DNA from: Bacteroidota bacterium
Lineage (GTDB): Bacteria; Bacteroidota; Bacteroidia; UBA4408
Length of the DNA: 64,000 bases
Direction of reading: 5' to 3'
NCBI GenBank assembly: GCA_963169745.1
Contig: CAUJCU010000024.1
Coordinates: 1-64,000, forward strand
Below, one piece after another: positions 19,115 to 48,179 of this stretch. Each line of letters opens with the position of its first letter. Within the stretch, counting starts at the first letter, position 1. Made by a program: the position numbers and the translations under genes. The notes under the pieces are model-generated. The model saw only the letters and a program-made list of their open reading frames with translations. It did not search any database and was not told the origin of the DNA.

Positions 19115-19402
19115 ATGAAAAAGTTTCTTTTTATATTCCTATTCTTTATGGGTCAGGTCTATTATGGCAAAGTATATGCACAAGAGGCTGAGCCTCCTAA
19201 AAAGGATTCCAAAAATGAAACAAAAATGGAAAAAGAGGAAAAAAAGAAACGCCAGCTAAGCGAAAAAGAAGGAAAGAAAAGACACCTGAAAATTCAATCT
19301 AAGAAAACGCGTAAAAGGATGAAGCAATCCCAAAAAAAATCGCGTAGAATTAACGAACCTAAACAAGAATTTTTCTTATTTAGGCTTTTTCGTAGGGGAT
19401 AA
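19115..19402 (+). CDS. Small, very basic secreted protein
   Basis: A 95-aa protein with a good signal peptide, MKKFLFIFLFFMGQVYYGKVYAQ. The mature part of about 73 residues has 28 Lys/Arg against 11 acidic residues by my count, mostly in runs such as EEKKKR, EGKKRH and KTRKRMK. It ends in a short hydrophobic-basic tail, FFLFRLFRRG. No homologous family is recognised. The clean signal sequence, stop and isolated position argue for a real gene, but low complexity makes this less certain than its neighbours. Confidence 0.6.
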   Translation: MKKFLFIFLFFMGQVYYGKVYAQEAEPPKKDSKNETKMEKEEKKKRQLSEKEGKKRHLKIQSKKTRKRMKQSQKKSRRINEPKQEFFLFRLFRRG

Positions 19403-19520
19403 TAAATTCTTCCAAATCTAAAATAAAAAAATTAACCCTTTAAAAACAGGACTTTATGATTCAAAAAACATTGAATACCAAACAAAAACGAAATTTATTT
19501 AAAAAAGATAATTGTTAAAT

Positions 19521-19552
19521 TTGGAAAAAATTTTTTTTATTACATATCTTTA
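19521..19552 (+). promoter_or_regulatory. Candidate promoter of the TonB-receptor operon
   Basis: TTG (19521-19523), a 21-base spacer and TATCTTTA (19545-19552, one mismatch to TAnnTTTG) lie upstream of the receptor ATG at 19597. The spacer contains a T-run. Confidence 0.4.
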
Positions 19553-19596: not shown

Positions 19597-22500
19597 ATGA
19601 TAAGAAAATTATACTTAACATTGGTAATTGCAATAGGTTCAATTACTTGTGCATTAGCACAAGGGAGTGGAGCTGTGAAGGTTACCGTAATTGATGGAAC
19701 CACTAAGGAAACAGTACCATTTGCTACAGTTGTGGTCATGTCTAAAGGGCAACAAGTTGCTGCCGCAGCAGCTACTATTGATGGGGAGGCTTTTATAAAA
19801 CCCATTGACCCGGGTGTTTACAGCATTAAAGTTAGCTATACCGGATATACGGGTATTGAAATTACCAATGTAAATATTTTTGATGCTAAAACTCAATATG
19901 TCACCGCTACAATAATGCCAGGTGTTGAGTTGGTAACTTTTGAGAAAATTGAATATGTAGTACCTTTAATTGACCCCAATGCCAGTACGTCAAAAACGGT
20001 TACCAGAGAGCAATATGATAAAATGGCAACAAAAAATATTAACTCTGTAGTGGCGCAGTCAGCTGGAGTTGCACAAGTAGATGAGGGCGATGCAGTTAAT
20101 ATTCGTGGAGGCCGTTCTGAGTCTAGTGAAACGTATATAGATGGAATGCGTGTAATTGGATCAGCCGGTTTGCCTCAGTCCAGTATCGAACAAGTATCGG
20201 TAATTACAGGTGGTGTACCAGCCGCTTTTGGGGATGCTACTTCAGGAATTGTAAACATTACCACTAGAGGCCCGCAGAGTACTTTATTTGGAGGGGTTGA
20301 GGCTATAAGCTCTGAACTAACCGATAGGTATGGATACAACTTTTTAGGCTTTTCTTTAGGAGGCCCTATTTTTTCGGTTAAAGATACTACAAACGCTTCA
20401 AAGAGAACCATTCTTGGCTTCTTCCTATCTGGTGAACTTTCAACAGAAAGAGACCCAGACCCTTCTGCAATAGGAATGTGGAAAGTTAAGGATGATGTTT
20501 TAGCCGATTTAGAGAAAAAACCTTTACGCCATAATCCTAATGGAAGTACTACGCTTGTGCAAAGTTCCCAGTTCATTACTAAAAATGATATGGAGCAAAT
20601 TAAAGCGAAGCAAAATACGAGATCAAACTTTGTTCGTTTAAATGGAAAAATTGACTTTAAACCTATTGAAAACTTAAATATTACAATTGGAGGTTCGGTT
20701 GATTATAATAACCGCCATGATTTTATCTATGAATATGCTTTATTTAACCCAAGTAACAATGCGCAGTCTATTGATAAAACTTGGAGAGTATATGGAAGAT
20801 TACAACAAAAGTTTAGCTCAGCTCCAGAAGGAAAAGAAGATAAAAGTGCCTCAAACTTAAAAAACGCCTATTATACTTTACAAGCTTCTTATACTAAAGT
20901 ACATAATATTGAACAAGACGATAATCATAAAGATAAATTATTTGACTACGGTTATTTAGGACAATTTAAAACACATAAACAACGTATATATAACTTCGAA
21001 GCTTCAAAACAAGCATTTGTACAAAGTGGCTGGCAAGATACTTTAGTAACCTATACGCCAGATACAGTTAGAAACACCTATGGCGCTAATTATGCTTCAG
21101 CTTATTTTGACTTGCAAAAAGATTTACCAAGCTCTATGGCGTTTGATAATATTTTCCGTATTCAAGCTAATGGAGGTATGATTAATGGCGATCGCCCGAA
21201 TAACGTAAACGGGTTATGGTACAATACCGGTCGCCAATACGGTGGGTATTCTTTAGACGACAGATCTCAATTCCGCATCAATACAAGCTTTTCTGCCGAT
21301 ATAAAAAATCATGCTATTCAATTAGGTTTTGAGTTTGAACAAAGAAACGAAAGCTATTATAATATTACACCAATTGGTTTGTGGGGCTTAATGTATCAGT
21401 TAGTTAATAAAGCTGTTACTGATATTGATTTAACCAAGGAGCACTTAACCCAAAATGGTATTTATGATACAATAACTTTTGATAGAGGGTATAACGAAAA
21501 AGAAGAGGCACAATTTTCAAAAAGCTTGAGAAAGCAATTTGGGTATAATCAAAATGATTGGATTGATATTCATAATATGAAGCCGGAAGATTTTAGACTA
21601 GATATGTTTAGTGCTGATGACTTATTAAACAATGGCAATTCCTTTGTTTCATACTATGGCTACGATTATTTAGGAAATAAAAGAAACAATGTTGCTTTTG
21701 AGGATTTCTTTACTGAGAAAGACGAAAACAACAACTTAACCCACCCGGTTGGTGCCTTTAGCCCAATTTATATGGCGGGTTATATTCAAGATAAGTTTGA
21801 TTTTAAGGATCTGAAATTTAACGTAGGATTAAGGATTGACCGTTTTGATGCGAACCAAAAAGTATTAAAAGACCCTTATTCCTTATATGCTACTCGTACT
21901 GTTGGAGATGTTACCGAGATAAACGGAGCAACTATTCAGCACCCAAGTAATATTAAAAACGATTATGTAGTGTATGTAAACAATATTAATGACCCTACTC
22001 AAATAGTTGGGTACCGAAACAATGATACTTGGTATAATAATGAGGGGGTAGAAGTTAACGACCCACGTGTATTGGCACAACAAACATCTAATGGGCAATT
22101 AACCCCATATTTGGTTAACGCTACTGATGGAGCAACCGATGCTACAAACACCGGAATCCGCTCTACATCCTATAACCCAAGTAATTCATTTAAAGATTAC
22201 GATGCCCAGGTTACTTTTATGCCACGCGTTGCATTTTCATTCCCTATTTCGGATATGGCCAATTTCTTTGCACACTATGATGTTTTAACCCAACGTCCGC
22301 CTTCCCGTTTAAGGATGAATATTTTTGACTACTACTTTATGGATATTAATACCGGTGGCGTTTTAAATAATCCGAACTTACGTCCGGAACGTACTGTTGA
22401 TTATGAATTAGGATTTACACAAGTGCTTAATGAAGCTCAAAACTCAGCTTTAACTTTATCAGCCTTTTATCGTGAGTTAAAAGATATGATTCAAGTAAGA

Positions 22501-23289
22501 CGATTCTCTTATGCCTATCCGGTTTCATATACTTCATTTGGAAATATTGATTTTGGTACCGTTACCGGATTCTCAGTTGCCTATGATCTTAGAAGAACAA
22601 ACAATGTGTCTTTAAATGCTAACTATACCCTTTCTTTTGCTAATGGTACCGGATCGTCAGACGGAGATGCATACAATATTATTTCAAATTCAACACAACC
22701 TAACTTAAGAAATACGGTACCTCTTTCTTTTGATCAACGCCATAATATAGTTGCCAATGTGGATTACAGTTATGGTAGCGGAAAGGATTACAACGGACCT
22801 AAAATTAATGGAAAGAATATTTTGGAAAATGTTGGGGCTAACTTAACATTCCGTGCTACATCTGGTACACCATACAGCCGTCAGGGAAATATTTCTCAGG
22901 AAGGAGCCATCGGTTTAGCAAAAATATCCGTATTGTCTGGTAGCCTAAATGGGTCGCGCTTACCATTCCAGTATCGCTTCGATTTGAGAGTACAGAAAGC
23001 ATTTCCAGTTGTTTTTGGTAAAAAAGACAATGAAAATAGTAAACGTGGAAATGTAAGTGTTTATCTTCAGGTCCTCAACTTGTTAAATGCTAAAAATATT
23101 ATTAACGTTTATCGTGCAACTGGAAATCCTGATGATGACGGATATTTAACTGACGCAGCATCTGCTTCAATTATAAATAGCTATCCAAGCCCTACTGCCT
23201 TTGTTGATCAATACAGCATCAAGATTAACAACCCAAATAACTATTCAATTCCAAGAAGAATGAGAATAGGTGTAACTTTAGATTTCTAA
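19597..23289 (+). CDS. TonB-dependent outer-membrane receptor
   Basis: A 1230-aa outer-membrane transporter. The signal peptide ends CALAQ. A carboxypeptidase-regulatory-like domain (about residues 25-110) contains TVIDGTTKETVPFATVVV and YSIKVSYTGYTG. The plug follows (VNIRGGRSESSETYIDGMRV, then SIEQVSVITGGVPAAFGDATSGIVNITTR, about 165-225). A large beta-barrel contains NPNLRPERTVDYELGF and ends with the aromatic MRIGVTLDF. No SusD-like partner is present; the next genes encode a secreted protein and a PorV-like barrel. The substrate is unknown, and the context suggests a surface-protein complex rather than glycan uptake. Confidence 0.93.
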   Translation: MIRKLYLTLVIAIGSITCALAQGSGAVKVTVIDGTTKETVPFATVVVMSKGQQVAAAAATIDGEAFIKPIDPGVYSIKVSYTGYTGIEITNVNIFDAKTQYVTATIMPGVELVTFEKIEYVVPLIDPNASTSKTVTREQYDKMATKNINSVVAQSAGVAQVDEGDAVNIRGGRSESSETYIDGMRVIGSAGLPQSSIEQVSVITGGVPAAFGDATSGIVNITTRGPQSTLFGGVEAISSELTDRYGYNFLGFSLGGPIFSVKDTTNASKRTILGFFLSGELSTERDPDPSAIGMWKVKDDVLADLEKKPLRHNPNGSTTLVQSSQFITKNDMEQIKAKQNTRSNFVRLNGKIDFKPIENLNITIGGSVDYNNRHDFIYEYALFNPSNNAQSIDKTWRVYGRLQQKFSSAPEGKEDKSASNLKNAYYTLQASYTKVHNIEQDDNHKDKLFDYGYLGQFKTHKQRIYNFEASKQAFVQSGWQDTLVTYTPDTVRNTYGANYASAYFDLQKDLPSSMAFDNIFRIQANGGMINGDRPNNVNGLWYNTGRQYGGYSLDDRSQFRINTSFSADIKNHAIQLGFEFEQRNESYYNITPIGLWGLMYQLVNKAVTDIDLTKEHLTQNGIYDTITFDRGYNEKEEAQFSKSLRKQFGYNQNDWIDIHNMKPEDFRLDMFSADDLLNNGNSFVSYYGYDYLGNKRNNVAFEDFFTEKDENNNLTHPVGAFSPIYMAGYIQDKFDFKDLKFNVGLRIDRFDANQKVLKDPYSLYATRTVGDVTEINGATIQHPSNIKNDYVVYVNNINDPTQIVGYRNNDTWYNNEGVEVNDPRVLAQQTSNGQLTPYLVNATDGATDATNTGIRSTSYNPSNSFKDYDAQVTFMPRVAFSFPISDMANFFAHYDVLTQRPPSRLRMNIFDYYFMDINTGGVLNNPNLRPERTVDYELGFTQVLNEAQNSALTLSAFYRELKDMIQVRRFSYAYPVSYTSFGNIDFGTVTGFSVAYDLRRTNNVSLNANYTLSFANGTGSSDGDAYNIISNSTQPNLRNTVPLSFDQRHNIVANVDYSYGSGKDYNGPKINGKNILENVGANLTFRATSGTPYSRQGNISQEGAIGLAKISVLSGSLNGSRLPFQYRFDLRVQKAFPVVFGKKDNENSKRGNVSVYLQVLNLLNAKNIINVYRATGNPDDDGYLTDAASASIINSYPSPTAFVDQYSIKINNPNNYSIPRRMRIGVTLDF

Positions 23290-23342
23290 CAATATTTAAT
23301 ATTCCGGTACATCGAATGGTGAAACAAATTAAAAACAACAAA

Positions 23343-26300
23343 ATGGAAAGAACGAAAAAACTACTGGCCATTGCACTTACACTGAGTGTTTCAGTTTTAA
23401 CTGCAAAAGAGAACGTTGGTCTCATTGGTGGTAAGCTTTCAGGAAATGCAGCTGCATCTGCGGCATGTTCTCCAGCTACAGCCAAAGCCGACTTGAATAT
23501 AAATAATGTGCGTGCCTTAATTATGAATGGGGGTGACATGTGGTGGGATCAAGGGTTAGACGTAGCCCGCTACGAGGTGCCTAAGGGTTCCGGAAAGTAC
23601 TCCTACTTTGCCGCAGCACTTTGGATTGGTGGTCTAGATCAAGGAGGGCAATTAAGAACTGCTTGCCAAACATACCGTCAAACAGGAAATGACTTTTGGC
23701 CTGGTGCTTTGGATATCACAAACGCATCGATTGATGCCACCGGCTGTTCAAGATGGGATAAAATGTTCCCCATTACACGCCAAGAAGTTTCTGATTTTAC
23801 AGCATACTTAGCCTCACCATCCGATTTTCCTGGATATACCATCCCCGAAAGTATTACCAAATATCCCGGAAACGGTGATGTTAGCAAAAATGAAGATTTG
23901 CAAATGGCTCCTTTTTGGGATGTTAACTCAGATGGTCTGTACCGCCCCGAAGATGGCGATTATCCTAAGTACGATATTTTCAATACAGCCTCACAAGGCG
24001 GTGGCTGCTCTAATTTCTTATTTGGTGATCAAACCTTATTTTGGGTATTTAACGATAAAGGAAATATTCATAGTGAAACCAGCGGACAGCCAATAGGTGT
24101 TGAAATTAGAGCTCAAGCTTTTGCTTTTGCTACCAACGATGAGATTAACGATATGACCTTTTACCAATATCAAATCATCAATAGAAGTAACCTAACCATA
24201 AGCGAAACCTATTTTGGAAGTTGGAATGACCCCGATTTAGGGGTTTATAGTGATGACCTTGTGGGCTGCGATGTAGTTAATGGTTTAGGCTTTTGCTATA
24301 ATGGTACTGATAATGATGGAACAGGCTCTGGAAATAGTTATGGAGATAAACCACCCTGCTCTGCCGTTGACTTCTTTAAAGGACCCAAAGCCGATCCTTA
24401 TTTTTTAAATGGAGTTGAAACCGACCGCCCTGCTAACCAAACTATAAGTGGTTTTGGTTATGGTGATGGTATCATTGGGAATGAAACATTAGGAATGGAG
24501 TATTTTATGGTGTTTAAAAACGATTGGTCAACGCAAGGGAACCCTTCACAGGCAACTCACTTTTACAATTACCTACAATCGAAGTGGAAAGACGGAACCC
24601 CTTTGACTTATGGCGGATCTGGTATGGGAGGAACAACCCCTACAAAATTTGCTTTCCCTTGGACTTCAGATGATGCTAATGGAAACGTAAATTGGGAGGC
24701 TAATGAAAATGCCGACTGGCGATTTATTCACTCAGCCGGTCCTTTTACCTTAAAACCGGGAGCCGTAAACTATGTTACCACAGGTTGTGTTTGGGCACAA
24801 GCACAATCAGGAGGAGCCAAAGCTTCGGTAGAGTTGGTTCGTCTAGCAGATATAAAAGCGCAAGCCTTATTTAACAACTGCTTTGCAGTACTTGAAGGAC
24901 CTCGCGCTCCAGATTTATCAATTCAAGAATTGAATAAAGAATTAATCCTTTATATTACCAATCCTAATACAATTACTTTTAATAACAAGAATGAAAAATA
25001 TGAGGAATTAGACCCTTTAATTCCCGCTCTTCCTGGATTTGACAGAACCTATAACTTTGAAGGATATTTAATTTACCAGGTTCGAGATGCTTCTGTTACT
25101 GCTTCCGAAGCTGATTTAACAGATGTTACGAAAGCACGATTAACAGCTCAGTGTGATGTAAAAAATGAGCACTCTCAATTAATCAACTATACATTTGATG
25201 CAGCTTTAAACTCTAGTTTGCCTGTTTTAAAGAACCCAACCATTAATGGGTATAACAAAGGTATTAAACATTCTTTTAAAGTTACTGAAGACAAATTTGC
25301 AACAGGAGCTGATAAACGATTAGTAAATCATAAAACATATTATTTTCTAGCTGTAGCTTATGGAGCAAATAACTTCAAAACATATAATCAAAGCGACCCC
25401 TCAACCTTTGATGGTCAAAAGAAACCCTATATTTCAGGAGCAAAAAGTTCCAAAGGCTTAAGTATAGCTCCAGTATCCGGTATTCCACATATTACTGCAT
25501 CAGAAGCAGAAGGAACGTCATTGCAAAGTGCTTATGGAGATGGCCCTAAAATTAAACGTGTAGAAGGGCAAGGAGGGGGCTACCAAGAAATGGAGTTAAC
25601 AGACGAAACAGTAAATGAGATATTAGCCAATGGAAAAATTGATCAACCGGTATATAAAAATGGGAAAGGTCCAATAAATATAAAAGTGATTGATCCATTG
25701 AATGTTCCTGAAGGAGAATTTCAATTGAAATTTGTTAGTCGTGCTTTGGTTCCTGCTCTACAATTGCAAAACGGAACTATTGACTCTCTAAGTGCTACTG
25801 ATCCATCAACTCAATATGTTTATGCTTATGTCCCTTTAAATTCTGATATTTTTGCCGCTCAAGGTTTTGTAAATAATAAATACACCATTAAAAGGGTTAA
25901 AAATATTTTAACAGCTGTTGATACAGCAGCTTGGGTATTAACCAATATGACTACTTTAGATTCAGTAGTTTCAGATACATGTATTAATATTGAGAATGAA
26001 CAGCTTATACTTAAATGGGGGCTATCAGTAACAATTAAAAAAGGAATTGCGCCAAGTGTTGATATGGCCAATGATCAGAATGGGTTAATTTCAAGCACAT
26101 GGATATCTAAAGATCCTACAAAAAATTGGATTTATGGTTTGCCTGACCAAGATGGTCAATGGGCTTTGAATTGGATTCGCTCAGGTACACAAACGTATCC
26201 AACTCCAATACAAGGGCCACCAAATTATATTGGAAATGATTATCCCGGAATTGATGATGGACAGTACTATGAAAAAGTAATTGATGGCGTATGGGCTCCT

Positions 26301-27437
26301 TATATCTTAACTTCTAATGAATGGAATGGTGTTTCTTGGAATAACTCGTATTTCAACCCGCCAGGAAGAAAAAGAGAAATCATGCGTAATTTACGAAGTG
26401 TAGATATTGTTATTACTGCTGATAAAACAAAATGGACACGATGTGCTGTATTAGAGATGCAAGATGACCCAGCTTTGGCCGTTGGGGGAGCAGCTAAATT
26501 TGATCTTAGAAAATCAGCTTCGCGTGATAAAGATGGAAATGATGATGGCTCAGGAACAATAGGAATGAGCTGGTTCCCAGGATATGCTATTAATGTTGAA
26601 ACAGGCGAAAGACTAAATATGGCTTTTGGCGAAGACTCATGGCTATCTGGCGACAACGGAAATGATATGATATGGAATCCTACATCAAAAATTTGGGACG
26701 AGAATGCTACTAATGGAGCTACTAAAGGAATCATTTTTGGTGGCAAACATTATGTTTATGTGTTTGGTCACTCCGGAAATACGGAGAATGATATGCCTTA
26801 TTATGATGAAGGGAACTTTATTAAAACACGATTGTCATCTGGTCAAATACAAGATAAACAGCGTGTTTTTAAAGATTGTATGTGGTCAAGTGTTCCTTTA
26901 GCATACGGAGGAGACAAGTTTCTAAGTACCGATATTACAGTTAAAATTAGAGTATCTCGACCATACAACAGGTATTACGCTGGAAGCGCTGTTGTATCAT
27001 CAGCATTTGATTTATTATCACCAAAGGCACCTGCTCCTCAAAATGCAGACTTCCCTCTTTATTCTTTCGGAACGGGTGATATTGCTACTAAGAAAGGGGT
27101 TGCTGGCGTTGCTAAAAGTGCTTTGGATTTAATAAATGTAGTGCCAAATCCATACTTTGCATATTCTGCTTACGAGAGAAATACTTTAGAAAATATAGTT
27201 AAAATTACCAATCTTCCTCAAAATTGTGTGATTAGCATATATACTGTAAATGGAACTTTGATTAGAAAATTCCAGAAAGATGATCCTAAAACCTCGTTGG
27301 ATTGGGATTTAAAAAATCAAAAAAATGTTCCAATAGCTAGCGGATTATACTATATTCATGTGAATGTACCAAATGTAGGAGAGAAAGTAGTTAAGTTCTT
27401 TGGAACATTACGTCCTATAGATTTAGATCAGTTTTAA
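23343..27437 (+). CDS. Large secreted protein with C-terminal sorting-like domain
   Basis: About 1364 aa. The frame is also open from ATG 23316, but ATG 23343 puts the signal peptide (MERTKKLLAIALTLSVSVLTA) at the N-terminus and follows an A-rich stretch. Near the N-terminus, GGDMWWDQGLDVARYEVPKGSG and LWIGGLDQGGQL belong to a family of large exported Bacteroidota proteins of unknown function. The final 100 residues (VVPNPYFAYSAYE, VISIYTVNGTLIRKF, ASGLYYIHVNVP) have the layout of a T9SS C-terminal sorting domain but end in GTLRPIDLDQF rather than the usual basic KxVxx tail. It lies between the TonB receptor and the PorV-like gene with short gaps on both sides. Confidence 0.85.
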   Translation: MERTKKLLAIALTLSVSVLTAKENVGLIGGKLSGNAAASAACSPATAKADLNINNVRALIMNGGDMWWDQGLDVARYEVPKGSGKYSYFAAALWIGGLDQGGQLRTACQTYRQTGNDFWPGALDITNASIDATGCSRWDKMFPITRQEVSDFTAYLASPSDFPGYTIPESITKYPGNGDVSKNEDLQMAPFWDVNSDGLYRPEDGDYPKYDIFNTASQGGGCSNFLFGDQTLFWVFNDKGNIHSETSGQPIGVEIRAQAFAFATNDEINDMTFYQYQIINRSNLTISETYFGSWNDPDLGVYSDDLVGCDVVNGLGFCYNGTDNDGTGSGNSYGDKPPCSAVDFFKGPKADPYFLNGVETDRPANQTISGFGYGDGIIGNETLGMEYFMVFKNDWSTQGNPSQATHFYNYLQSKWKDGTPLTYGGSGMGGTTPTKFAFPWTSDDANGNVNWEANENADWRFIHSAGPFTLKPGAVNYVTTGCVWAQAQSGGAKASVELVRLADIKAQALFNNCFAVLEGPRAPDLSIQELNKELILYITNPNTITFNNKNEKYEELDPLIPALPGFDRTYNFEGYLIYQVRDASVTASEADLTDVTKARLTAQCDVKNEHSQLINYTFDAALNSSLPVLKNPTINGYNKGIKHSFKVTEDKFATGADKRLVNHKTYYFLAVAYGANNFKTYNQSDPSTFDGQKKPYISGAKSSKGLSIAPVSGIPHITASEAEGTSLQSAYGDGPKIKRVEGQGGGYQEMELTDETVNEILANGKIDQPVYKNGKGPINIKVIDPLNVPEGEFQLKFVSRALVPALQLQNGTIDSLSATDPSTQYVYAYVPLNSDIFAAQGFVNNKYTIKRVKNILTAVDTAAWVLTNMTTLDSVVSDTCINIENEQLILKWGLSVTIKKGIAPSVDMANDQNGLISSTWISKDPTKNWIYGLPDQDGQWALNWIRSGTQTYPTPIQGPPNYIGNDYPGIDDGQYYEKVIDGVWAPYILTSNEWNGVSWNNSYFNPPGRKREIMRNLRSVDIVITADKTKWTRCAVLEMQDDPALAVGGAAKFDLRKSASRDKDGNDDGSGTIGMSWFPGYAINVETGERLNMAFGEDSWLSGDNGNDMIWNPTSKIWDENATNGATKGIIFGGKHYVYVFGHSGNTENDMPYYDEGNFIKTRLSSGQIQDKQRVFKDCMWSSVPLAYGGDKFLSTDITVKIRVSRPYNRYYAGSAVVSSAFDLLSPKAPAPQNADFPLYSFGTGDIATKKGVAGVAKSALDLINVVPNPYFAYSAYERNTLENIVKITNLPQNCVISIYTVNGTLIRKFQKDDPKTSLDWDLKNQKNVPIASGLYYIHVNVPNVGEKVVKFFGTLRPIDLDQF

Positions 27438-27458
27438 TTTTTAAAATCAAGCAATCCT

Positions 27459-28541
27459 ATGATATCAAACATTGGTTTAAAGCTTAAAGTTATAGCTCTT
27501 AGTGCTTTAGTTACAAGTTCGGTAATAGCCGGAAACTCAGATCGTGCCGGTCAGGCTGGAGGAACTCAGTTACTTATTAATCCTTTTACGAGAAGTTCGG
27601 GCTGGGGAAGTGCTAATTCTGCCTCAGTTATGGGTTTAGAAGCACAATACTTAAATGTTGCCGGTTTGGCACATGTTGAAAAAACAGAATTATTAGTAGC
27701 ACGTACAAATTGGCTTGGGGGCACAGGAACAAAAATAAATTCTTTTGGATTTAGTCAAAAAATGGGCAATGCCAGCGCATTGGCTTTTGGCGTAATGTCA
27801 ATGGATTTTGGCGATATTCCAGTTACAACGGTAGAGCAACCTGAAGGAAATTTAGGAACTTTTAAACCTCAATTTTTAAACTTAAATTTAAGTTACGCTA
27901 AAGAGTTTTCAAACAGCATTTTTGGAGGAATTAATGTAAAAGTTATTTCTGAAAGTATTGCTAATATGAAGGCCAGCGGTATTTGCTTTGATGGGGGCAT
28001 TCAATATGTTACAAGTTTTGGGAAAGACAAAGAGTTAAAAAGAAAAAATGTACATTTTGGTATTTCGTTAAAAAATGTGGGACCACAAGTAAGGTATCGT
28101 GGTGATGGATTGGCAGTTAAAGGTTCTATATTGTCAACCGGAGCTCCACAAACATTTGAAATGCGCTCTCAAGAATATGATTTACCATCTATGGTTAACA
28201 TAGGAGCTGCTTATGACTATTATTTCAGCAAGGAAAATAATGACCAACGCCTTACTGCTGCTCTTAACTTTACTTCTAATTCTTTTACACAGGATCAATT
28301 CAGTTTAGGGTTTGAGTATGGTTACAAACAATTATTTATGTTGCGAGCCGGAATGGTTTATGAAAAAGGAATCTTTAATGCCGACAACCGAAAAACAGCC
28401 TTAACCGGACCTACTGCCGGATTTACTTTTGATGCACCACTAGGCAAAGCGAGTACTCGTAAATTTGGTATTGATTATGCCTATCGTATGACTAGCATTT
28501 TTGCCTCAGTTCACACTATAGGCTTACGCTTAAAGCTCTAA
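27459..28541 (+). CDS. PorV/PorQ-family outer-membrane protein
   Basis: A 360-aa exported protein of the PorV/PorQ (FadL-like 14-strand barrel) family. PorV carries T9SS cargo from the translocon to the attachment complex. Visible features are a signal peptide ending VIAGNS, the family start GGTQLLINPFTRSSGWGSANSA and YLNVAGLAHVEKTELLVARTNWLGG, strands such as SALAFGVMSMDFGDIPVTT, and the terminal strand FASVHTIGLRLKL. It starts 21 bases after the secreted-protein stop and is the last gene of the operon. Because it sits with its apparent cargo, it may be a dedicated paralogue rather than the general PorV. Confidence 0.85.
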   Translation: MISNIGLKLKVIALSALVTSSVIAGNSDRAGQAGGTQLLINPFTRSSGWGSANSASVMGLEAQYLNVAGLAHVEKTELLVARTNWLGGTGTKINSFGFSQKMGNASALAFGVMSMDFGDIPVTTVEQPEGNLGTFKPQFLNLNLSYAKEFSNSIFGGINVKVISESIANMKASGICFDGGIQYVTSFGKDKELKRKNVHFGISLKNVGPQVRYRGDGLAVKGSILSTGAPQTFEMRSQEYDLPSMVNIGAAYDYYFSKENNDQRLTAALNFTSNSFTQDQFSLGFEYGYKQLFMLRAGMVYEKGIFNADNRKTALTGPTAGFTFDAPLGKASTRKFGIDYAYRMTSIFASVHTIGLRLKL

Positions 28542-28568
28542 TTAGTTAACTTTGACACTTTATATAGG

Positions 28569-28600
28569 GAGTCCCGGTTTTATAACCGGGATTCTTTTTA
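28569..28600 (+). terminator. Intrinsic terminator after the TonB receptor/PorV-like operon
   Basis: An 11-bp stem with one G-T wobble (GAGTCCCGGTT at 28569-28579 pairing with AACCGGGATTC at 28584-28594) encloses a 4-base loop and is followed by a T-rich tract. It lies 27 bases after the PorV-like stop. Confidence 0.88.
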
Positions 28601-37604: not shown

Positions 37605-40600
37605 ATGATAAACTGGTACCAAATACGTACAAAACTTAGTGTTTTAACCGTACTTTTTGTTTTGATTTGCAGCACCTTATGGGCACAAGTCTATCAGGTG
37701 GGCACAGGAACATTAGTCAACACAACAACAAGCTACCCTGCCCCTTATGGGAACTTTTACTATGGAGCTAAACATCAGTTTTTAGTTACTGCTGCAGAAT
37801 TAAGTGCTGCCGGTGCTACCAATGGTGATATTAACTCCATTGGATTTGATGTAGTTACAGCAAATGGAGCTCCTTTAACCAATTTTGAAATAAAAATTGG
37901 AACCACAGCACTTACAGACTTAACAGCATTTGAGAGTGGCTTAACTTCTGTATATCTAGCCCCTACTTATACTGAAATAACAGGTGTAAATACCCATAAC
38001 CTGTTAACCCCTTTTAATTGGGACGGAGTAAGTAATCTAATTATTGAAACTTGTTTCAACAATACCAGTTGGGGTAATAACGCTGTAGTGAGTCAAAGCC
38101 AAACAACCTTTAATTCATCTATTTATTACCGTGCTGATAATGCAACCGTATGCACCAGCCCTGGAACTCCAACTGCAATAATGCAGCGTCCAAATATGTA
38201 TTTTGGCATAAGCGGAGGTTTCCCATGTATTGATCCTCCAACTGCAGGAGTTACCATTGCAAATATTAATCCTATTTGTCCAAGCCAAAATTTAGTGCTT
38301 ACCCTACAAGGGCAATCAACCGGTTCCGGACAAACCTATCAGTGGCAAACCTCTACTGATGGTGTTGCTTGGTCTCCAATCATTGGCGCTACCAGCTCTT
38401 CTTATGTTACTCTTCAAACAGCAACAACTTATTACAGATGTGTAGTAACATGTGGTTTATCTAGCGTTCCTTCTGACTATGTGATGGTGGTAAGCAATCC
38501 TCCAACACAGTGCTATTGTATTCCAACGGTAACTTATTGTGATGAATATATTTCGGATGTGATGTTTCTAAACACTACTAACCCAACAGGTTGTACTCCG
38601 GGTGGTTATAACGATTATACCTCAATTACCTATCCGCTATCAATAAGCACACCTTACCCAATTACTGTGTTTAATATAGATGGATGGTCTAGTGACCAGT
38701 GTGGTATATGGATAGATTGGAATCAGGATGGAGATTTTGATGATGCTGATGAAACAATTACAATTGCAAGCGGTAGCCCTGGAGTAGGCCCCTATAACGC
38801 AATTATTACTCCGCCTGCAGGCGCTGTATTAGGTGTAACCCGTATGAGAATACGAATTGTTTGGGCTGCTGCACCACTACCATGCGGCACTTCTTCTTAT
38901 GGTGAGGTTGAAGATTATTCAATCAATGTATTACCTCCACCATCTTGCCCTTTTGCATCGGGTATTACATTTAATAATATAACATCAAATTCTGCTGATA
39001 TTGATTGGGCAGATGGAGTTACAGCAGTAGGCTATGAAGTTCGCTGGAAAGCAGTTGCCGATCCAATTTCTGTTCCAACATGGGCTACACCAACTGCAAC
39101 AGCAGTATCTAACTTTAGCTTTACAGGATTATTACCTAATACACAATATGAAGCACAGGTTAATGTTGATTGTGGAGGTGGTGACTTAAGTGGTTTTACA
39201 TACAGTTATACTTTTGGAACATCATGTGCATTAACAGATTGTCCGGTTGGTGCTGTAGCCGAAAGTGAAGCTTGTGGGGATGACCTGAATGGCGGTTGTA
39301 ACATGACCGTACCTGCTTATGAGCCAATAGCTTGTGGGCAAACTGTTTGCGGAACAGCTTGGTCATCTGCATCAACAAGAGATACAGATTGGTATGAGTT
39401 CACTTTAACCCAACCTAGTACCGTAACATGGACAGTAGATGCAGATTTCCCAGCCAACATTGGGTATGTAGATGCCTCTGCTGGTTGTGGTGCTCCACAA
39501 TTCTTTAATTTGTCTTCAAATGTGGGAGATTGTTCAGGAACTACATCAGTTCAAAATTTACCAGCTGGTACATGGTGGCTGTTTGTTAGCCCTACTAACT
39601 TTGATGATGCTTATGGATGTACTTCTGGAAAAAATAGATATGTGGGAACATTAACATGTGTGCCACTAACTGTAATAGCTAATGACGAGTGCACTAACGC
39701 AATTTCTCTTATTCAAGATGTAGCTTGCAATTATACCAATGCCACCGTTGACGATGCAACACAATCTCTATCAGGCTGTGCAGCAGGAAGTACTGCTAAC
39801 GATGATGTATGGTTCTCATTTGTAGCCATTAATACAACAGCCTTAGTAAAAGTTGCCGGTTCTGTTGGTTTTGATGCAGTTATTCAAGTGTTTGATGCTT
39901 GCCCTGGAAACAGTTTGGTATGTGCCAATGGTTCCGGCTTAGGAGCAATAGAAACAGCACTTGTAACAGGATTAACTGTGGGTAATACTTATTACGTGCG
40001 TGTTTATGATTATGGTATGGGCATGCCTGCTACTACTACCTTTGATATTTGTGTAACAGACCCAGGTAACATTATTATTATGAATAATAACAATGATGAA
40101 ACAACATGTAGTGCTCAATTTTATGATTCAGGAGGCGCTGGTGCTAATTATGGACTAAATGATAATTATACAAAAACAATTTATCCGGATGCTCCAAATA
40201 GTTCAGTTCAGGTAGTGTTTAATTCTTTCCAAACAGAAAGTGGCTATGATGGATTGACAATCTATAACGGACCAAACACAACTTATCCAATGATATCATC
40301 AGGCTTAGCTGCCGGATGGATTGTTGCAAATTGCCCTGCCGGATCTTATTATGGAACAACAAGCCCTGGAACAGTAACATCTTCTGATCCATCAGGAGCC
40401 TTAACTTTTGTTTTCCGTTCAGATGCTTCTGTGGCCAACCCTGGTTGGGATGCTACTGTTGGTTGTATCTCTTCCTTATTAGCCCCGAACTGCGCCACAA
40501 ACATTCAGCCTGTTGATTTAAGTACCAATGTTAACCCTAATCCAGTATTAAGCTGGAGTGCTGGTGCTGGAACTCCTCCAACAGGATATGATGTGTATTT

Positions 40601-43600
40601 TGGAACAACTCCAAACCCTCCACTAGTAAGTGCAAATCAACCGGCTACTACTTACAGTCCAGGAATGTTATCATTTGGAACTACGTATTATTGGAGTGTG
40701 ATACCTGTAAATGCTAATGGAGCTGCTACGGGTTGTACAGAGCAAAGTTTTACAACTGGAACTGCCGTTGTATTTTGCATCCCATCTTCTACTTTTTGTG
40801 ATGAGTATATTATGAATGTAACTGTGGGTACTATCAATAATGCAAGTGCTTGTACAGCTGGTGGATATATGGATTATTCGGCAATTTCAACCGATGTTTA
40901 TCAAGGATTATCATACCCAATTACAATTGAAAATGGGAATGGTTATTTAAGTGATCAGTGTGGTATTTGGGTTGATTGGAATCAAGATGGTGACTTCCTT
41001 GATGCCAATGAAGTAACTCCGGTTACCGGAACTCCGGGAGTTGGGCCATACACTGCTAATATTGATGTACCTGTAACTGCTAATTTAGGTCAATCCAGAA
41101 TCAGAATTAGAATTATGTACACCGGAGTATTAGATCCATGTGGAAATACTACTTATGGAGAGGCAGAAGACTATACTCTAAATGTATTACCAGAGCCATA
41201 TTGTGTTTATCCAAGCGCTTTGACAGTAACCAATTTAACACCAACAGATGCTCAATTAAATTGGGGCAGTGTTGTTGATGCTGTAAATTATTTGGTTCGT
41301 TATAAAGAAGTTGCTGACCCGGGAACAGCTTTAACTTGGACTACTCCAACAGTTGTAGCAGCCCCAACCACTATGTTGGCAATAAATGGATTAAACCCGA
41401 ACACAGTATATGAATTCCAGGTACAAACTGATTGTGGCACTACTCCTTTTGGGTTTAGTCCTTCTCATCAGTTTACCACCCCATGCTCTAACACAGTATG
41501 CCCTCCGGGAGCAATACAAGAAGGCGAGCTTTGTGGTGATGATATAAATGGAGGTTGTAATATGGGAGTTCCAGCATACACGCCAATTTCATGTGGTGAT
41601 GTAATTTGCGGAACTTCATGGGCTGAAAATGGAACAAGAGATACTGACTGGTTCGAATTTACATTAACCCAGCCAAGTACCGTAACATGGACAGTTAACG
41701 CTGATTTCCCAATGGTAATTGGTTTTGTGGATGCATCTCAAGGATGTGCTAACCCTCAGTTCTTTAATTTAAGTACAACCGAGAGCTTATGTGGTGATAC
41801 ATTCTCTATAGATAACTTAGCACCAGGTACATGGTGGACATTTATTGCCCCTAATGATTTCGATTTTTATCCATGCGGTACTCAGAACAACTATGTAGCC
41901 TCTTTAAATTGTGTACCTTTAGTAGTAGCTGCTAATGATGAATGTACAAATGCTATTCCGGTGGTTTGGAATACAACTTGTGATCCAACGCAAGGCTCAG
42001 TAGCTGATGCTACACAATCTTTAGTTGGATGCTCTGGAGTAGCTAATGACGATGTATGGTTCTCATTTGTTGCAACCAATACAACAGGTATCGTTGAAGT
42101 TACAGGGTCTGCTTCTTTTGACCCGGTAATTGAATTGTTTGATGCTTGTTTTGGTAACTCTTTAGGATGTTTTGATGCAGGATTCGGTATAGGTACTGTA
42201 GAAACAGGAATTATGACTGGCTTAACAGTTGGAAACACCTATTATGTACGTGTTTATGATGCAGGTTTAGGTATTCCGGCAACTACAGATTTCTCATTGT
42301 GTATATTTGATTTACCTCCTCCACCTGTTAATGATAACTGTTCTGGTGCTATTGCTGTTGGATGTAATACGCCAATAAGTGGTTCTACAATATGGGCTAC
42401 AGCCGAAAGTGGTGTTGCAACTTGTGGTACCCCAATTTCAGCTCCTGGTGTTTGGTACACCGTTCAAGGAAACGGAGGTACGATTATTGCCAGTTTATGT
42501 ACAGGTACAAGTTATGATTCGCGTATTAATGTATTCTCAGGTGATTGCTCTGCTTTGGTTTGTGTTGGTGGTAACGATGATTTTTGTGGATTACAATCTC
42601 AAACCCAGTGGACCAGTGTAGCTGGAACAACGTATTACATTTTAGTACAGGGTTATGCTAATGCTGTTGGTAACTTTACGTTAACTGTAACCACAACTAC
42701 ACCTACTGCTCCAGTCATTACTGCCGCAGGCCCTACTACTTTCTGTACAGGAAACACTGTTGAATTAACTAGTGATGTTGCAACAGGTATAGTTTGGAGT
42801 AACAATGAAACAACTCAAACAATTATTGTTGGAGATTCTGGTGATTACTCTACTACCATTACTGATGGTAACGGATGCTCTGCAACCAGTAACATTATTA
42901 CTGTTACTACTTCTGCTCCTCCAACTCCGGTTATTACCTCAAGCGGTTCTTCAGTTTGTGAAGGAGATACAGTAACTCTATCTGTAAACTGGAACGCAGA
43001 TCTAAGTTGGTCTCCAACATTTGAATCAAGTCCAACAGTTCAGGTAAGCGCAGTTGGTACTTATGATTATGCTGTAACCATTACAGATGCCAATGGTTGT
43101 TCATCTACATCTGCTATTGAGCAGGTTTCTATTAACCCAACTCCTGTTGCTCAAATTACAGCGAATGGTCCAACCACAATTTGTGGTACCGGATCTTCAG
43201 TTGATTTAACAGCATCTGGAGGAGATAGCTATTTGTGGAATGATACAATTCCTACTACAACTGCAACTTTAACGGCAAGCACAGCAGGCGATTATTTTGC
43301 TATTGTTACTTCAGCAGCAGGTTGTACCGCAGTTACACCTATAATTACTGTTGGATTCTTCCCGGCACCAACTGTTCCAACTATAACTGCCGGTGGTGCA
43401 ACAACTTTCTGCGATGGTGGAAGTGTGACTTTAACATCATCCGTAGCCAATGCTTACAACTGGGGTGGTGGAAATACAAGCCAGGACTTTGTAGCTAGCG
43501 TTTCGGGTACTTACACAGTAACTACTACCGATACGAATGGTTGTGAAGCTGTTTCTTTACCAGTAGAGGTTATTGTTAATCCTAACCCTATTGTAACAAT

Positions 43601-44741
43601 TACAGCAAATGGAAACACAACATTCTGTTTAGGCGGCTCAGTTGATTTAACTTCTTCTGCAGCAAGCGGAAACGTTTGGTCTAACCAACTTACCGGACAA
43701 ACCATTGCTGTTAATACCAGCGGTAGCTATTCAACAACTGTTACTGATAACAATGGCTGTGTAGGAACATCAAACACTATTGCTGTAACTGTTAATTCTG
43801 TTCCAGTTCCTACTATTACTGCAAATGGACCTTTAGCTTTATGTAATGGAGCTACTGTTGATTTAACATCAAGCAGTTCAAGCGGAAACACCTGGAGTAC
43901 CGGTTCAAACAATCAAACAATTACTGTAGCAACTGCTGAAACCATCACTGTTACAGTGTTAGACACACTAACCGGATGCTCGGCCACCTCTCAACCAATT
44001 GTAACTACTGTTGGAGCTGGAGCTACACCGTATATCATAGTAGGTGGTCCAACTATTATCTGTGAAGGAGAATCTGTTCAATTGTTAAGTAGTGAGCTAA
44101 CTGGAAACACTTGGAGTACAGGTGAAACCACAAACTCCATATTTGCTACAACAACTGGATTATATACGGTTACTTATACCTCACCTGGTGGATGTACTGC
44201 CATTTCAACTACAGTACCAGTAGTTGTAAATCCATTGCCAACAGCTTCATTTACTTATAATGCACAATTGGGAGGCTTAACTACCTTTACCAATACATCA
44301 AGTGATTTTGTAACTAGCCAATGGAATTTTGGTGATGGCTCACCTTGGTCAAATACTACCAACCCTACTCATACTTATTTGGGCGATGGTGTTTATACTG
44401 TAGTATTAACCGTAGGCAACGACTGTGGTTCAATTACCATAAATCAACAAGTTACTATTGTTGGAACCGGTATAGAAACTTTAGCTGACGGTACTTCTTT
44501 AGAGTTGTATCCAAATCCGGCCACTGAAACAATTAATATTGCTTACAATGGATCCAAAACGCAAAAATTAATGGTAAGAGTAGTAAATGTGAGCGGTCAA
44601 ATTGTTTATACAGATGCTGTAGGACAATACACCGGTCAATACAAAAATACTATTGACTTAAGCTATGTTGCTAAAGGAGTATATTTTATACAGTTGATTA
44701 CCGATGATGGTTTAATTAACCGCAAAATTGTACTTCATTAA
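37605..44741 (+). CDS. Giant modular T9SS adhesin (GEVED, Fn3, CUB-like, Ig-like, PKD)
   Basis: A 2378-aa cell-surface protein. After the signal peptide (ending STLWAQV) come: an N-terminal domain (about 25-210); an Ig-like domain (220-300); GEVED domain 1 (304-433, ending YGEVEDYSINV); a fibronectin-III domain; a TRDTDWYEFTLTQPSTVTW domain; an ANDECTNAI domain; a CUB-like domain (about 822-958, YDGLTIYNGPN); and a second GEVED/Fn3/TRDTDWFEF/ANDECTNAI set (about 1060-1560). Then follow another pre-peptidase-like domain, seven Ig-like repeats of about 73 residues with two Cys each (1699-2209), a PKD domain (FGDGSPWSNTTNPTHTY) and a type A sorting domain (LELYPNPATETINI, GVYFIQL, NRKIVLH). The DNA of the two large sets is nearly identical in places, 2259 bases apart. 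Confidence 0.95.
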   Translation: MINWYQIRTKLSVLTVLFVLICSTLWAQVYQVGTGTLVNTTTSYPAPYGNFYYGAKHQFLVTAAELSAAGATNGDINSIGFDVVTANGAPLTNFEIKIGTTALTDLTAFESGLTSVYLAPTYTEITGVNTHNLLTPFNWDGVSNLIIETCFNNTSWGNNAVVSQSQTTFNSSIYYRADNATVCTSPGTPTAIMQRPNMYFGISGGFPCIDPPTAGVTIANINPICPSQNLVLTLQGQSTGSGQTYQWQTSTDGVAWSPIIGATSSSYVTLQTATTYYRCVVTCGLSSVPSDYVMVVSNPPTQCYCIPTVTYCDEYISDVMFLNTTNPTGCTPGGYNDYTSITYPLSISTPYPITVFNIDGWSSDQCGIWIDWNQDGDFDDADETITIASGSPGVGPYNAIITPPAGAVLGVTRMRIRIVWAAAPLPCGTSSYGEVEDYSINVLPPPSCPFASGITFNNITSNSADIDWADGVTAVGYEVRWKAVADPISVPTWATPTATAVSNFSFTGLLPNTQYEAQVNVDCGGGDLSGFTYSYTFGTSCALTDCPVGAVAESEACGDDLNGGCNMTVPAYEPIACGQTVCGTAWSSASTRDTDWYEFTLTQPSTVTWTVDADFPANIGYVDASAGCGAPQFFNLSSNVGDCSGTTSVQNLPAGTWWLFVSPTNFDDAYGCTSGKNRYVGTLTCVPLTVIANDECTNAISLIQDVACNYTNATVDDATQSLSGCAAGSTANDDVWFSFVAINTTALVKVAGSVGFDAVIQVFDACPGNSLVCANGSGLGAIETALVTGLTVGNTYYVRVYDYGMGMPATTTFDICVTDPGNIIIMNNNNDETTCSAQFYDSGGAGANYGLNDNYTKTIYPDAPNSSVQVVFNSFQTESGYDGLTIYNGPNTTYPMISSGLAAGWIVANCPAGSYYGTTSPGTVTSSDPSGALTFVFRSDASVANPGWDATVGCISSLLAPNCATNIQPVDLSTNVNPNPVLSWSAGAGTPPTGYDVYFGTTPNPPLVSANQPATTYSPGMLSFGTTYYWSVIPVNANGAATGCTEQSFTTGTAVVFCIPSSTFCDEYIMNVTVGTINNASACTAGGYMDYSAISTDVYQGLSYPITIENGNGYLSDQCGIWVDWNQDGDFLDANEVTPVTGTPGVGPYTANIDVPVTANLGQSRIRIRIMYTGVLDPCGNTTYGEAEDYTLNVLPEPYCVYPSALTVTNLTPTDAQLNWGSVVDAVNYLVRYKEVADPGTALTWTTPTVVAAPTTMLAINGLNPNTVYEFQVQTDCGTTPFGFSPSHQFTTPCSNTVCPPGAIQEGELCGDDINGGCNMGVPAYTPISCGDVICGTSWAENGTRDTDWFEFTLTQPSTVTWTVNADFPMVIGFVDASQGCANPQFFNLSTTESLCGDTFSIDNLAPGTWWTFIAPNDFDFYPCGTQNNYVASLNCVPLVVAANDECTNAIPVVWNTTCDPTQGSVADATQSLVGCSGVANDDVWFSFVATNTTGIVEVTGSASFDPVIELFDACFGNSLGCFDAGFGIGTVETGIMTGLTVGNTYYVRVYDAGLGIPATTDFSLCIFDLPPPPVNDNCSGAIAVGCNTPISGSTIWATAESGVATCGTPISAPGVWYTVQGNGGTIIASLCTGTSYDSRINVFSGDCSALVCVGGNDDFCGLQSQTQWTSVAGTTYYILVQGYANAVGNFTLTVTTTTPTAPVITAAGPTTFCTGNTVELTSDVATGIVWSNNETTQTIIVGDSGDYSTTITDGNGCSATSNIITVTTSAPPTPVITSSGSSVCEGDTVTLSVNWNADLSWSPTFESSPTVQVSAVGTYDYAVTITDANGCSSTSAIEQVSINPTPVAQITANGPTTICGTGSSVDLTASGGDSYLWNDTIPTTTATLTASTAGDYFAIVTSAAGCTAVTPIITVGFFPAPTVPTITAGGATTFCDGGSVTLTSSVANAYNWGGGNTSQDFVASVSGTYTVTTTDTNGCEAVSLPVEVIVNPNPIVTITANGNTTFCLGGSVDLTSSAASGNVWSNQLTGQTIAVNTSGSYSTTVTDNNGCVGTSNTIAVTVNSVPVPTITANGPLALCNGATVDLTSSSSSGNTWSTGSNNQTITVATAETITVTVLDTLTGCSATSQPIVTTVGAGATPYIIVGGPTIICEGESVQLLSSELTGNTWSTGETTNSIFATTTGLYTVTYTSPGGCTAISTTVPVVVNPLPTASFTYNAQLGGLTTFTNTSSDFVTSQWNFGDGSPWSNTTNPTHTYLGDGVYTVVLTVGNDCGSITINQQVTIVGTGIETLADGTSLELYPNPATETINIAYNGSKTQKLMVRVVNVSGQIVYTDAVGQYTGQYKNTIDLSYVAKGVYFIQLITDDGLINRKIVLH
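38518..42310 (+). repeat. Tandem duplication of a multi-domain module within the adhesin gene
   Basis: The GEVED to ANDECTNAI block occurs twice. The matching string CCGTAACATGGACAGT starts at 39421 in copy one and 41680 in copy two, an offset of 2259 bases or exactly 753 codons. The CUB-like domain (about 40070-40480) lies between the copies and is present once. Confidence 0.8.
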
Positions 44742-46091: not shown

Positions 46092-48179
46092 ATGAAAAAA
46101 TCAATATTGCTTTGTTTCGTTTTCTTTTACATTTATTATGGTAGAACAGTTCAAGCACAGGAAATAAACCCTTGTGGCACCTATGAGGCCAATAAAAAAA
46201 TGGAAACTTTGTCCCCTGTTGAGGTAAAGCAAGCTCAAGAAAAATTAGAGGAAGAAACAGCGATTTTTATGCAAAACCGCACAAGTACAAGTGTAAATTA
46301 CACCATACCTGTTGTTTTTCATATTCTCCATACCTATGGAACCGAAAATATTTCAGATGCACAAGTTGAAGATGCCGTTAATATTTTAACACGTGATTTT
46401 AATAAACAAAATGCTGATACAGCTAATATTGTAAATGCATTTAAAGGCATTGCCGCCAATGTAGGTATTACATTTAAATTAGCAAAAATTGATCCTGATG
46501 GGAATTGCACTAACGGAATTGACCGTATTTACAGCCCATTAACCAATATTGGTGATGATGATGCTAAGTTGAATGTTTGGCCTCGAAACAAGTATTTAAA
46601 TATTTGGGTGGTTAAGAACATTGCCAGTGGAGCAGCAGGTTATTCTATGTACCCCAGTAGTGTACAAGGGCCCGGAGGAGCTCAGGTAGATGGGGTTATG
46701 ATTTTATCAACTTATGTAGGCAGTATTGGTACTAGTTCGGCCGGAAGAAGTCGTTCTTTGACCCACGAAATAGGACATTGGTTAAATTTAGCACATACTT
46801 GGGGAAACACAAACTCTCCGGGTGTTCAAAGTAATTGTAATTTTGATGACAACGTTAACGACACCCCCAATACCATAGGCTGGACGAGTTGTAACTTAAA
46901 TGGGGCAAGTTGCGGATCAGCTATTGATAATGTTCAAAATTATATGGAGTATTCGTATTGCTCAAATATGTTTACCAACGGACAAAAGAACAGAATGTTA
47001 ACGGCATTAACTTCAAATACAGCCTCCAGAAACAATTTATGGACAGCTTCTAATTTAACGGCTACTGGGGTAAACACTACTACAGTTTGTGAGCCCAAAG
47101 CAGATTTCTATGCACAAACTCCACAAGTATGTGTAAATTCTACTATTCAATTTTTTGATGACACAAATTTATCTCCGGCAACATCTTGGTCTTGGTCTTT
47201 CCCTGGAGGACTGCCGGCCACTTCTACGGATGAAAATCCTAGTGTACAATATACAAGTCCGGGTACCTATTCTGTGTCATTAACAGTGAGCAATGCCAGT
47301 GGCTCTAACTCTATTACTAAAAACTCTTATATAACAGTACTGGCCAGCACCGCAGATATAACTTCTTCGAGTTTCTATGAAAGTTTTGAAAATTTGACAA
47401 TCAACCAAAACAGCAATTGGAGTATTAATAATGTTGATGGAGGCTCAACATGGGCTATTGTTAATGGAGTAGGATATTTAGGTACTAAATCAATGAAGTT
47501 AGCCAATATTAATAATACTCCAGGGGCGGTAGATGAGTTTATTACCCCATCCATAGATTTAACCCAGTTTACCTCACCAAAATTATATTACCGAATAGCT
47601 TATGCATCTTTAACCGGAACTCCTGGTGTAGATTATGCAACCAACAATTTACAGGTTCAATCATCGGTAGATTGTGGAGAAACCTGGGGAATTAGACGCT
47701 CCTATTCAGAAACAGCAATGGCTACAGTTCCGGCACAAAATTCAGCATTTACACCGATGAGTCAAAGTCAATGGCGTCAAGATAACATTAATTTGAGTTT
47801 GTTTGCTAATGCTACTAACATTAAATTTAAATTCAAATTTACTGCCGGAGAGGGAAACAATATTTATATTGATGAGATTAATATCAATGAACCCACAGGA
47901 ATGGCTAATGATGAAATGATAAAAAATAATTTCAGAGTTTTTCCTAATCCTTCAGATAATGATGCTGTAGTATATTTTACAACAGAGGGTATTACAAATT
48001 CATCTATTAGAGTTGTGGATGTATTAGGGAAGGAAATATATAAAAACACTTGGAACTCATTGATAGGAGGAGATCATAGCGTGATTCTAAACAAAAACAT
48101 ACTCTATAGCTCTGGTGTATATTTTGTTCAAATTCAGATTGACAATCAACTTTTAACACAGAAACTTATTCTCAAATAA
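46092..48179 (+). CDS. Secreted M43 (pappalysin-family) metalloprotease with PKD and T9SS domains
   Basis: A 695-aa secreted zinc protease. The signal peptide ends TVQAQE. A prodomain precedes the catalytic domain, in which HEIGHWLNLAH places the zinc ligands at His225, His229 and His235 with Glu226 as the catalytic base. The Met-turn is NYMEYSYC (about residue 282), and DNVNDTP plus paired Cys fit the cytophagalysin branch of M43. A PKD domain (WSWSFPGGLPATSTDENPSVQY, about 370-420) and a jelly-roll-like region follow. The C-terminus is a T9SS type A sorting domain (FRVFPNPSDND, SIRVVDVLGKEIYKN, VYFVQIQIDNQLLTQKLILK). The protein probably acts at the surface or outside the cell. Confidence 0.94.
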   Translation: MKKSILLCFVFFYIYYGRTVQAQEINPCGTYEANKKMETLSPVEVKQAQEKLEEETAIFMQNRTSTSVNYTIPVVFHILHTYGTENISDAQVEDAVNILTRDFNKQNADTANIVNAFKGIAANVGITFKLAKIDPDGNCTNGIDRIYSPLTNIGDDDAKLNVWPRNKYLNIWVVKNIASGAAGYSMYPSSVQGPGGAQVDGVMILSTYVGSIGTSSAGRSRSLTHEIGHWLNLAHTWGNTNSPGVQSNCNFDDNVNDTPNTIGWTSCNLNGASCGSAIDNVQNYMEYSYCSNMFTNGQKNRMLTALTSNTASRNNLWTASNLTATGVNTTTVCEPKADFYAQTPQVCVNSTIQFFDDTNLSPATSWSWSFPGGLPATSTDENPSVQYTSPGTYSVSLTVSNASGSNSITKNSYITVLASTADITSSSFYESFENLTINQNSNWSINNVDGGSTWAIVNGVGYLGTKSMKLANINNTPGAVDEFITPSIDLTQFTSPKLYYRIAYASLTGTPGVDYATNNLQVQSSVDCGETWGIRRSYSETAMATVPAQNSAFTPMSQSQWRQDNINLSLFANATNIKFKFKFTAGEGNNIYIDEININEPTGMANDEMIKNNFRVFPNPSDNDAVVYFTTEGITNSSIRVVDVLGKEIYKNTWNSLIGGDHSVILNKNILYSSGVYFVQIQIDNQLLTQKLILK

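Follow-up and report, generated by a model that had tools for sequence, protein, structure and literature searches.

A conserved TonB receptor, sorting-domain protein and PorV-family barrel gene unit in Bacteroidota, possibly encoding a T9SS-delivered surface complex

Three adjoining genes, encoding a TonB-dependent receptor (A), a large surface protein that ends in a sorting domain (B) and an outer-membrane barrel of the PorV/PorQ family (C), are kept in this order in different classes of the Bacteroidota, where they are present together, are inherited together and occur in genomes that also encode the T9SS translocon SprA. The barrel forms a lineage of its own, and the sorting domain of B is anchor-like. 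The reading preferred here, to which slightly better than an even chance is given, is that B is exported through SprA, that C would be its private receiver and permanent anchor, and that A would join the two in a TonB-driven surface complex.

The unit is located in the window, i.e. the whole stretch of DNA that was analysed, which covers contig C24 from its start to 64 kb, in a 2.99 Mb genome. Its features are, in positions of the window:

19520-19552, + strand: possible Bacteroidota-type promoter (TTTG, ~21 nt, TATCTTTA; one mismatch)
19597-23289, + strand: gene A, TonB-dependent receptor of 1230 aa, composed of a CarboxypepD_reg-like domain, a plug and a putative barrel with Phe as last residue
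23316-27437, + strand: gene B, surface protein of 1373 aa carrying a sorting domain at its C-terminus; translation probably begins at ATG 23343
27459-28541, + strand: gene C, PorV/PorQ-family outer-membrane barrel of 360 aa (NF033709)
28566-28597, + strand: intrinsic terminator, 14-pair stem with T-rich tail, just 3' of C

The three open reading frames lie exactly where the first-pass annotation had placed them, separated by 26 (first ATG of B) or 53 bases (ATG at 23343) between A and B and by 21 bases between B and C, and the one terminator it had proposed is a strong stem that closes the run. As to its single candidate promoter, a near-consensus pair is visible upstream of A, with TTTG at ~19520 and TATCTTTA at ~19545 (one mismatch to TANNTTTG), but it is weak and statistically not distinguishable, because exact matches to the Bacteroidota-type consensus occur in the window at chance frequency; a scan for sigma-70-like promoters was also at chance level (34 sites, 33.5 expected). 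Downstream of C follow greA and HIT, which were identified by their translations and are conserved in relatives. Upstream of A, positions 19115-19402 encode a Lys/Glu-rich, secreted-looking protein of 95 aa, detected only in a few relatives (L042, L043 and L044; weakly in L083). Gene A itself is a TonB-dependent receptor by its plug (Pfam Plug, 37.7 bits, cut-off 23.9), and the A profile matches solved TonB receptors across this plug. CarboxypepD_reg is found in 24/24 homologues and Plug in 22/24; the barrel model matches eight of the 24 and not the A protein of the window. A conserved LxEVxxxxY, read from the consensus only, precedes the plug at the usual place of a TonB box.

Within gene B, four segments can be delimited:

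23343-23402, + strand: signal-peptide-like N-terminus (MERTKKLLAIALTLSVSVLT), seen in the sequence; Met10 nearly invariant
23448-24890, + strand: most conserved N-terminal domain, residues ~45-525, from the alignment
27111-27434, + strand: C-terminal sorting domain, seven predicted strands, anchor-like; best PDB match PorZ 5m11
27405-27434, + strand: tail past the last strand, with the sequence TLRPIDLDQF and the family pattern KWFGxMRPxDLxxF-COOH; the isolated model has low confidence here

A start at ATG 23343 is better supported than the first ATG, since the Met at residue 10 hardly varies among 25 homologues and the signal-peptide-like MERTKKLLAIALTLSVSVLTAKE comes next; the sequence contains no lipobox Cys at the end of this signal peptide. 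The body of B, ~1200 residues, matched no Pfam or NCBIfam family, and a sequence search of B against solved structures gave no match. Residues 30-700 were modelled by AlphaFold2 with a pLDDT of 79; in a fold search, the N-terminal half at best matched, and weakly, the beta-sandwich portions of enzymes such as GH116/GH94 (TM <=0.27), and since the catalytic domain is absent from these matches, an enzymatic assignment was rejected and none is claimed for B. The same genome contains a relative on contig C19 (G000:C19:110767-112369; L116:10325-11882) that shares the N-terminal domain at 40-43 % identity. Its frame is interrupted by stops, so that the gene looks broken, frame-shifted or mis-assembled; with an ordinary type A sorting domain and no adjoining A or C, it was dismissed as a second genomic copy of B.

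The end of B was compared with type A cargo and with the components of the T9SS attachment complex. Residues 690-1373, modelled by AlphaFold2 with a pLDDT of 74, finish with seven strands, the Ig-like C-terminal domain typical of type A cargo, followed by a loose ten-residue tail. Against PDB folds, PorZ (5m11, E 2.6e-6) was the only match of the sorting domain below 0.001. On the general type A model (TIGR04183, cut-off 23 bits), whole B scores 19.3 and the domain alone 23.6 and 24.6; the PorZ model outscores this general model, and the PorU model matches as well. A profile of the relatives' sorting domains gives the genome's own PorU 22.6 and PorZ 22.2 bits, versus 0.7-12.6 for seven ordinary cargos. 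When the genome was searched with the B-family sorting-domain profile, PorU came third, behind B itself and one 1695-aa protein; PorZ was not among the matches listed in this search, and the other genomic match, at C2:236370, has no A, B or C alongside. Two assignments of B as a whole were rejected: PorZ (NF052228, cut-off 260), on which B scores 26.8 bits with its C-terminal domain only and the genome's PorZ, on contig C11, scores 628; and type B cargo, TIGR04131 being unmatched in B in the NCBIfam scan.

Judged by these profile scores and by the PorZ fold match, the sorting domain of B is nearer to the uncleaved domains of PorU and PorZ than to those of ordinary cargo, which favours an anchor. 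PorQ serves as the anchor of PorZ, and PorV as that of PorU (PMC5562754); PorZ and PorU both keep their sorting domain, and their cognate PorV-like barrels have been suggested to protect it (PMC10202324). By analogy, C may hold B, because the B domain resembles those of PorU and PorZ, which are held by PorV and PorQ. The alternative that C is a dedicated shuttle only, PorU cleaving B for subsequent LPS attachment or release and A being merely a co-expressed importer, would correspond to the way in which PorV handles ordinary type A cargo (PMC5562754; PMC10994853); the genome encodes PorU, PorV, PorQ and PorZ, and the B domain scored alone still reaches the type A cut-off. It is nevertheless considered improbable, given the likeness to uncleaved PorU and PorZ and a receptor that is tied to the B-C pair as tightly as B is to C. 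As to the cargo set of this genome at large, ~124 type A sorting domains score above cut-off in 3 Mb, and the window itself encodes two further large proteins whose sorting domains are clearly of the ordinary type A kind (37605-44741 and 46092-48179), the second with a metalloproteinase-family match.

The barrel C scores 141.5 bits on the PorV/PorQ family model NF033709 (cut-off 90), in the range of four outgroup C proteins (138-212 bits), and its closest solved relative is PorV (6h3i, E 1.5e-14). It fits none of the named barrels: (i) on canonical PorV (NF033710, cut-off 250) it has 65.3 bits, and the true PorV is encoded beside PorU on contig C20 (498 bits); (ii) on PorQ (NF033711, cut-off 220) it has 63.3 bits, and the genome's PorQ lies on contig C16 (363 bits); (iii) on NCBI PorV2 (NF052325, cut-off 325) it has 54.2 bits, and the genome's PorV2 is found on contig C21 (469.5 bits); (iv) the PorP/SprF model TIGR03519 was unmatched in the NCBIfam scan, and a PorP/SprF protein encoded elsewhere in the genome is normally detected. 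C is thus a separate PorV-family lineage, and the comparison with the canonical PorV that had been proposed earlier ends with two distinct genes. SprA is encoded on contig C2 of the same genome, and PorU-PorV, PorQ, PorV2 and PorZ are likewise encoded apart from C. The PorV2 gene is convergent to a gene for a 277-aa type A sorting-domain protein (L115:9035-10938; G000:C21); no description of a PorV2 role was met in the literature examined.

The first-pass annotation had named loss of gene order in relatives as a refutation of its proposal; the order is kept. For 73 relatives of B taken from public genomes, neighbours were judged by profile searches: at Bacteroidia-side loci, A immediately precedes B in 61 of 67 testable cases and C immediately follows B in 57 of 65, gaps are mostly 10-60 bases, and greA and HIT usually come next after C. 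The exceptions are of two kinds, four different proteins that share the B N-terminal domain and have an ordinary sorting domain without A or C, and four second B-like genes with a family-type tail and no adjoining A or C (L049, L050, L053 and L095); these orphans suggest that certain copies depend on a barrel encoded elsewhere or on PorV. The C profile gives several PorV-family matches, up to 12 per genome, in many genomes from the other classes of the phylum. Outside Bacteroidia, 59 of 61 sampled C genes lie within complete A-B-C runs; of the remaining two, one is cut off by a contig end and one is a variant that lacks a long B. One genome (G183) has nine confirmed complete cassettes and another has seven. 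The unit therefore is old and multicopy outside Bacteroidia. The variant (L136:1281-2426; G090:C43) has an A-like gene upstream of C with no long B between them; it adjoins a complete cassette and is possibly a reduced form. Some source labels call for caution: L085 (CAJCJB010000344.1), filed as Candidatus Saccharibacteria, has a Bacteroidota-type B-C-greA-HIT run and is probably mis-binned, and the labels of some further MAGs (Chitinophaga pinensis, Chryseobacterium gleum) also look unreliable. The literature covered, which included few subscription journals, yielded no description of the trio.

Among 119 evenly drawn Bacteroidia genomes, 98 have both B and C, 19 neither, two B alone and none C alone (C in 98, B in 100). 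SprA is found in 115 of the 119, including all 98 with C. In a phylum sample of 148 genomes, SprA accompanies C in 79/79 C-bearing genomes and C is absent from 31/31 SprA-less ones, most of the SprA-less genomes listed being from one family. These counts rest on a C profile whose threshold may admit other PorV-family members; the class count is the cleaner one for this reason. The unit thus appears to need the T9SS. The T9SS does not need the unit, because 17 of the 115 SprA-bearing Bacteroidia genomes, many of them high-quality assemblies, are without it, and well-studied lineages may simply be among those that have none. These absences also bear on the idea that the three genes encode no nutrient importer but an accessory for envelope building or glycolipid handling, comparable to PorZ-PorQ with a receptor added. 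Consistent with that idea are the single copy in most Bacteroidia, the position of many loci beside the housekeeping genes greA and HIT, and the naming of PorZ, the nearest analogue of the B end, as an anionic-LPS delivery protein; it is nonetheless unlikely, in view of the genomes with SprA and no unit and of the many divergent paralogues per genome elsewhere, which look like substrate diversification.

Joint inheritance was examined in seven genomes with four to nine cassettes, and partners were permuted within genomes (3000 trials). Within-genome paralogue distances correlate with r=0.90 for A-B (permutation maximum 0.55), 0.84 for B-C (0.52), 0.90 for A-C (0.65) and 0.69 for the sorting domain and C (0.51); the best cross-genome cassette match by B agrees with that by C in 251 of 372 cases, versus 68 by chance. 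Partners are therefore rarely exchanged, and the earlier suggestion that receptor, cargo and shuttle act together is supported in part, in that the three are inherited as a unit, with r of 0.84-0.90 against permutation maxima of 0.52-0.65. The agreement of paralogues alone is not proof of contact, because adjacent genes are duplicated jointly, which accounts for much of this result. The earlier proposal to compare the trees of the PorV-like protein and the cargo gives a match in Bacteroidia as well, and most of it is explained by vertical descent: the distances of A, B and C agree (r 0.90-0.94), greA comes close to the same agreement, and partial correlations lose their specificity when greA and HIT are brought in. 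The Bacteroidia mirror-tree was accordingly discarded as proof of contact. Mere co-location, with B an ordinary cargo of canonical PorV and A and C doing unrelated work, is very unlikely: it could draw on the orphan B homologues without A or C and on the N-domain relative in the same genome, with its ordinary sorting domain and no cassette, but the order is kept across classes, C is present in 98 of 100 B-bearing genomes, and partners are rarely exchanged among the paralogues.

The tail of B had been described as unusual, with PIDLDQF at its end. It is present and odd in comparison with ordinary sorting domains, but for the B family it is typical and conserved: all 60 of 60 members end in F, Y, I or L, with an aromatic residue in 52, following a conserved RPxDL-type stretch. 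In outgroup cassettes the tail is extended (e.g. LAIIQEQQILDRF) in 27 and FAIIK-like in 32, and the trees of A, B and C all separate these two classes with no exceptions (support 1.0, 0.87 and 0.16, respectively, the split on the C tree thus being weakly supported). The tail was rejected as a general recognition code for C, distant cassettes ending in ...FAIIK like ordinary sorting domains; because of these ordinary-type ends, it seems dispensable for B-C pairing, and because the outgroup cassettes fall into two tail classes, it is a clade signature and not a universal code. Where it ends in an aromatic residue, the tail is a plausible, indeed likely, contact to C.

Taken together, the unit could operate in the following manner: B would be exported by Sec and then pass through the SprA translocon, sorting-domain first. 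It would be received by its own PorV-family barrel C, not by the general shuttle PorV, and C would hold it at the surface by direct contact and uncleaved by the sortase, in the way PorQ retains PorZ; the conserved tail with its terminal aromatic residue would be a likely contact to C. Anchored B may then sit beside or over the TonB-dependent receptor A and, in direct contact with it, act as its surface subunit, as SusD does for SusC; A would import whatever B binds. Less likely than this mechanism, in descending order, are a C that only shuttles B, an envelope-building trio and co-location. Extended to the phylum, the claim is more tentative and falls somewhat short of an even chance: the cassettes would be multicopy TonB importers in which a dedicated PorV-family barrel retains, without cleavage, a surface subunit delivered by the T9SS. 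Such importers would add a third architecture to SusCD and to TonB receptors without a partner, with the C proteins as private shuttle-anchors for type A-like sorting domains. For type A sorting domains, PorV has been described as common to all, and dedicated shuttles as confined to type B cargo (PMC12618676); a dedicated PorV-family partner for a type A-like domain would be new, because that work assigns all type A cargo to PorV. If true, the private barrel would break the rule of one PorV for type A (PMC12618676), the cassettes would offer many natural pairs for probing how sorting domains escape the sortase, and protein export would be linked to TonB-driven uptake.

Four known systems invite comparison. 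In the T9SS attachment complex, PorZ-PorQ and PorU-PorV also combine a sorting-domain protein with a PorV-family barrel, which holds it at the surface, and the B domain is most like theirs; unlike in these pairs, the body of B matches no known family, the unit includes a TonB receptor and is multicopy in other classes, and PorZ and PorU are encoded elsewhere. SprB-SprF, a type B cargo with a PorP/SprF shuttle, shares the arrangement of a cargo gene followed by its own barrel gene and the cognate pairing (PMC12618676), whereas the B domain is type A-like and C belongs to the PorV family, not to PorP/SprF. In the Bacteroidota BAM complex, BamG-BamH likewise pairs a barrel of the FadL family with a large surface protein that it binds (PMC12578637, PMC12611786), but BamH is a lipoprotein and C scores as PorV family, not as BamG. 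Like SusC-SusD, the unit has a TonB receptor with CarboxypepD_reg and plug, a large surface partner adjoining it and many paralogous pairs per genome; in contrast to SusD, which is a lipoprotein, B carries a C-terminal T9SS domain, an extra barrel gene is present, and no SusC or SusD family was matched in A-B-C by Pfam or NCBIfam, so that B does not class as a SusD lipoprotein. The A-B-C unit thus resembles PorZ-PorQ and, at the system level, SusC-SusD, and is a member of neither.
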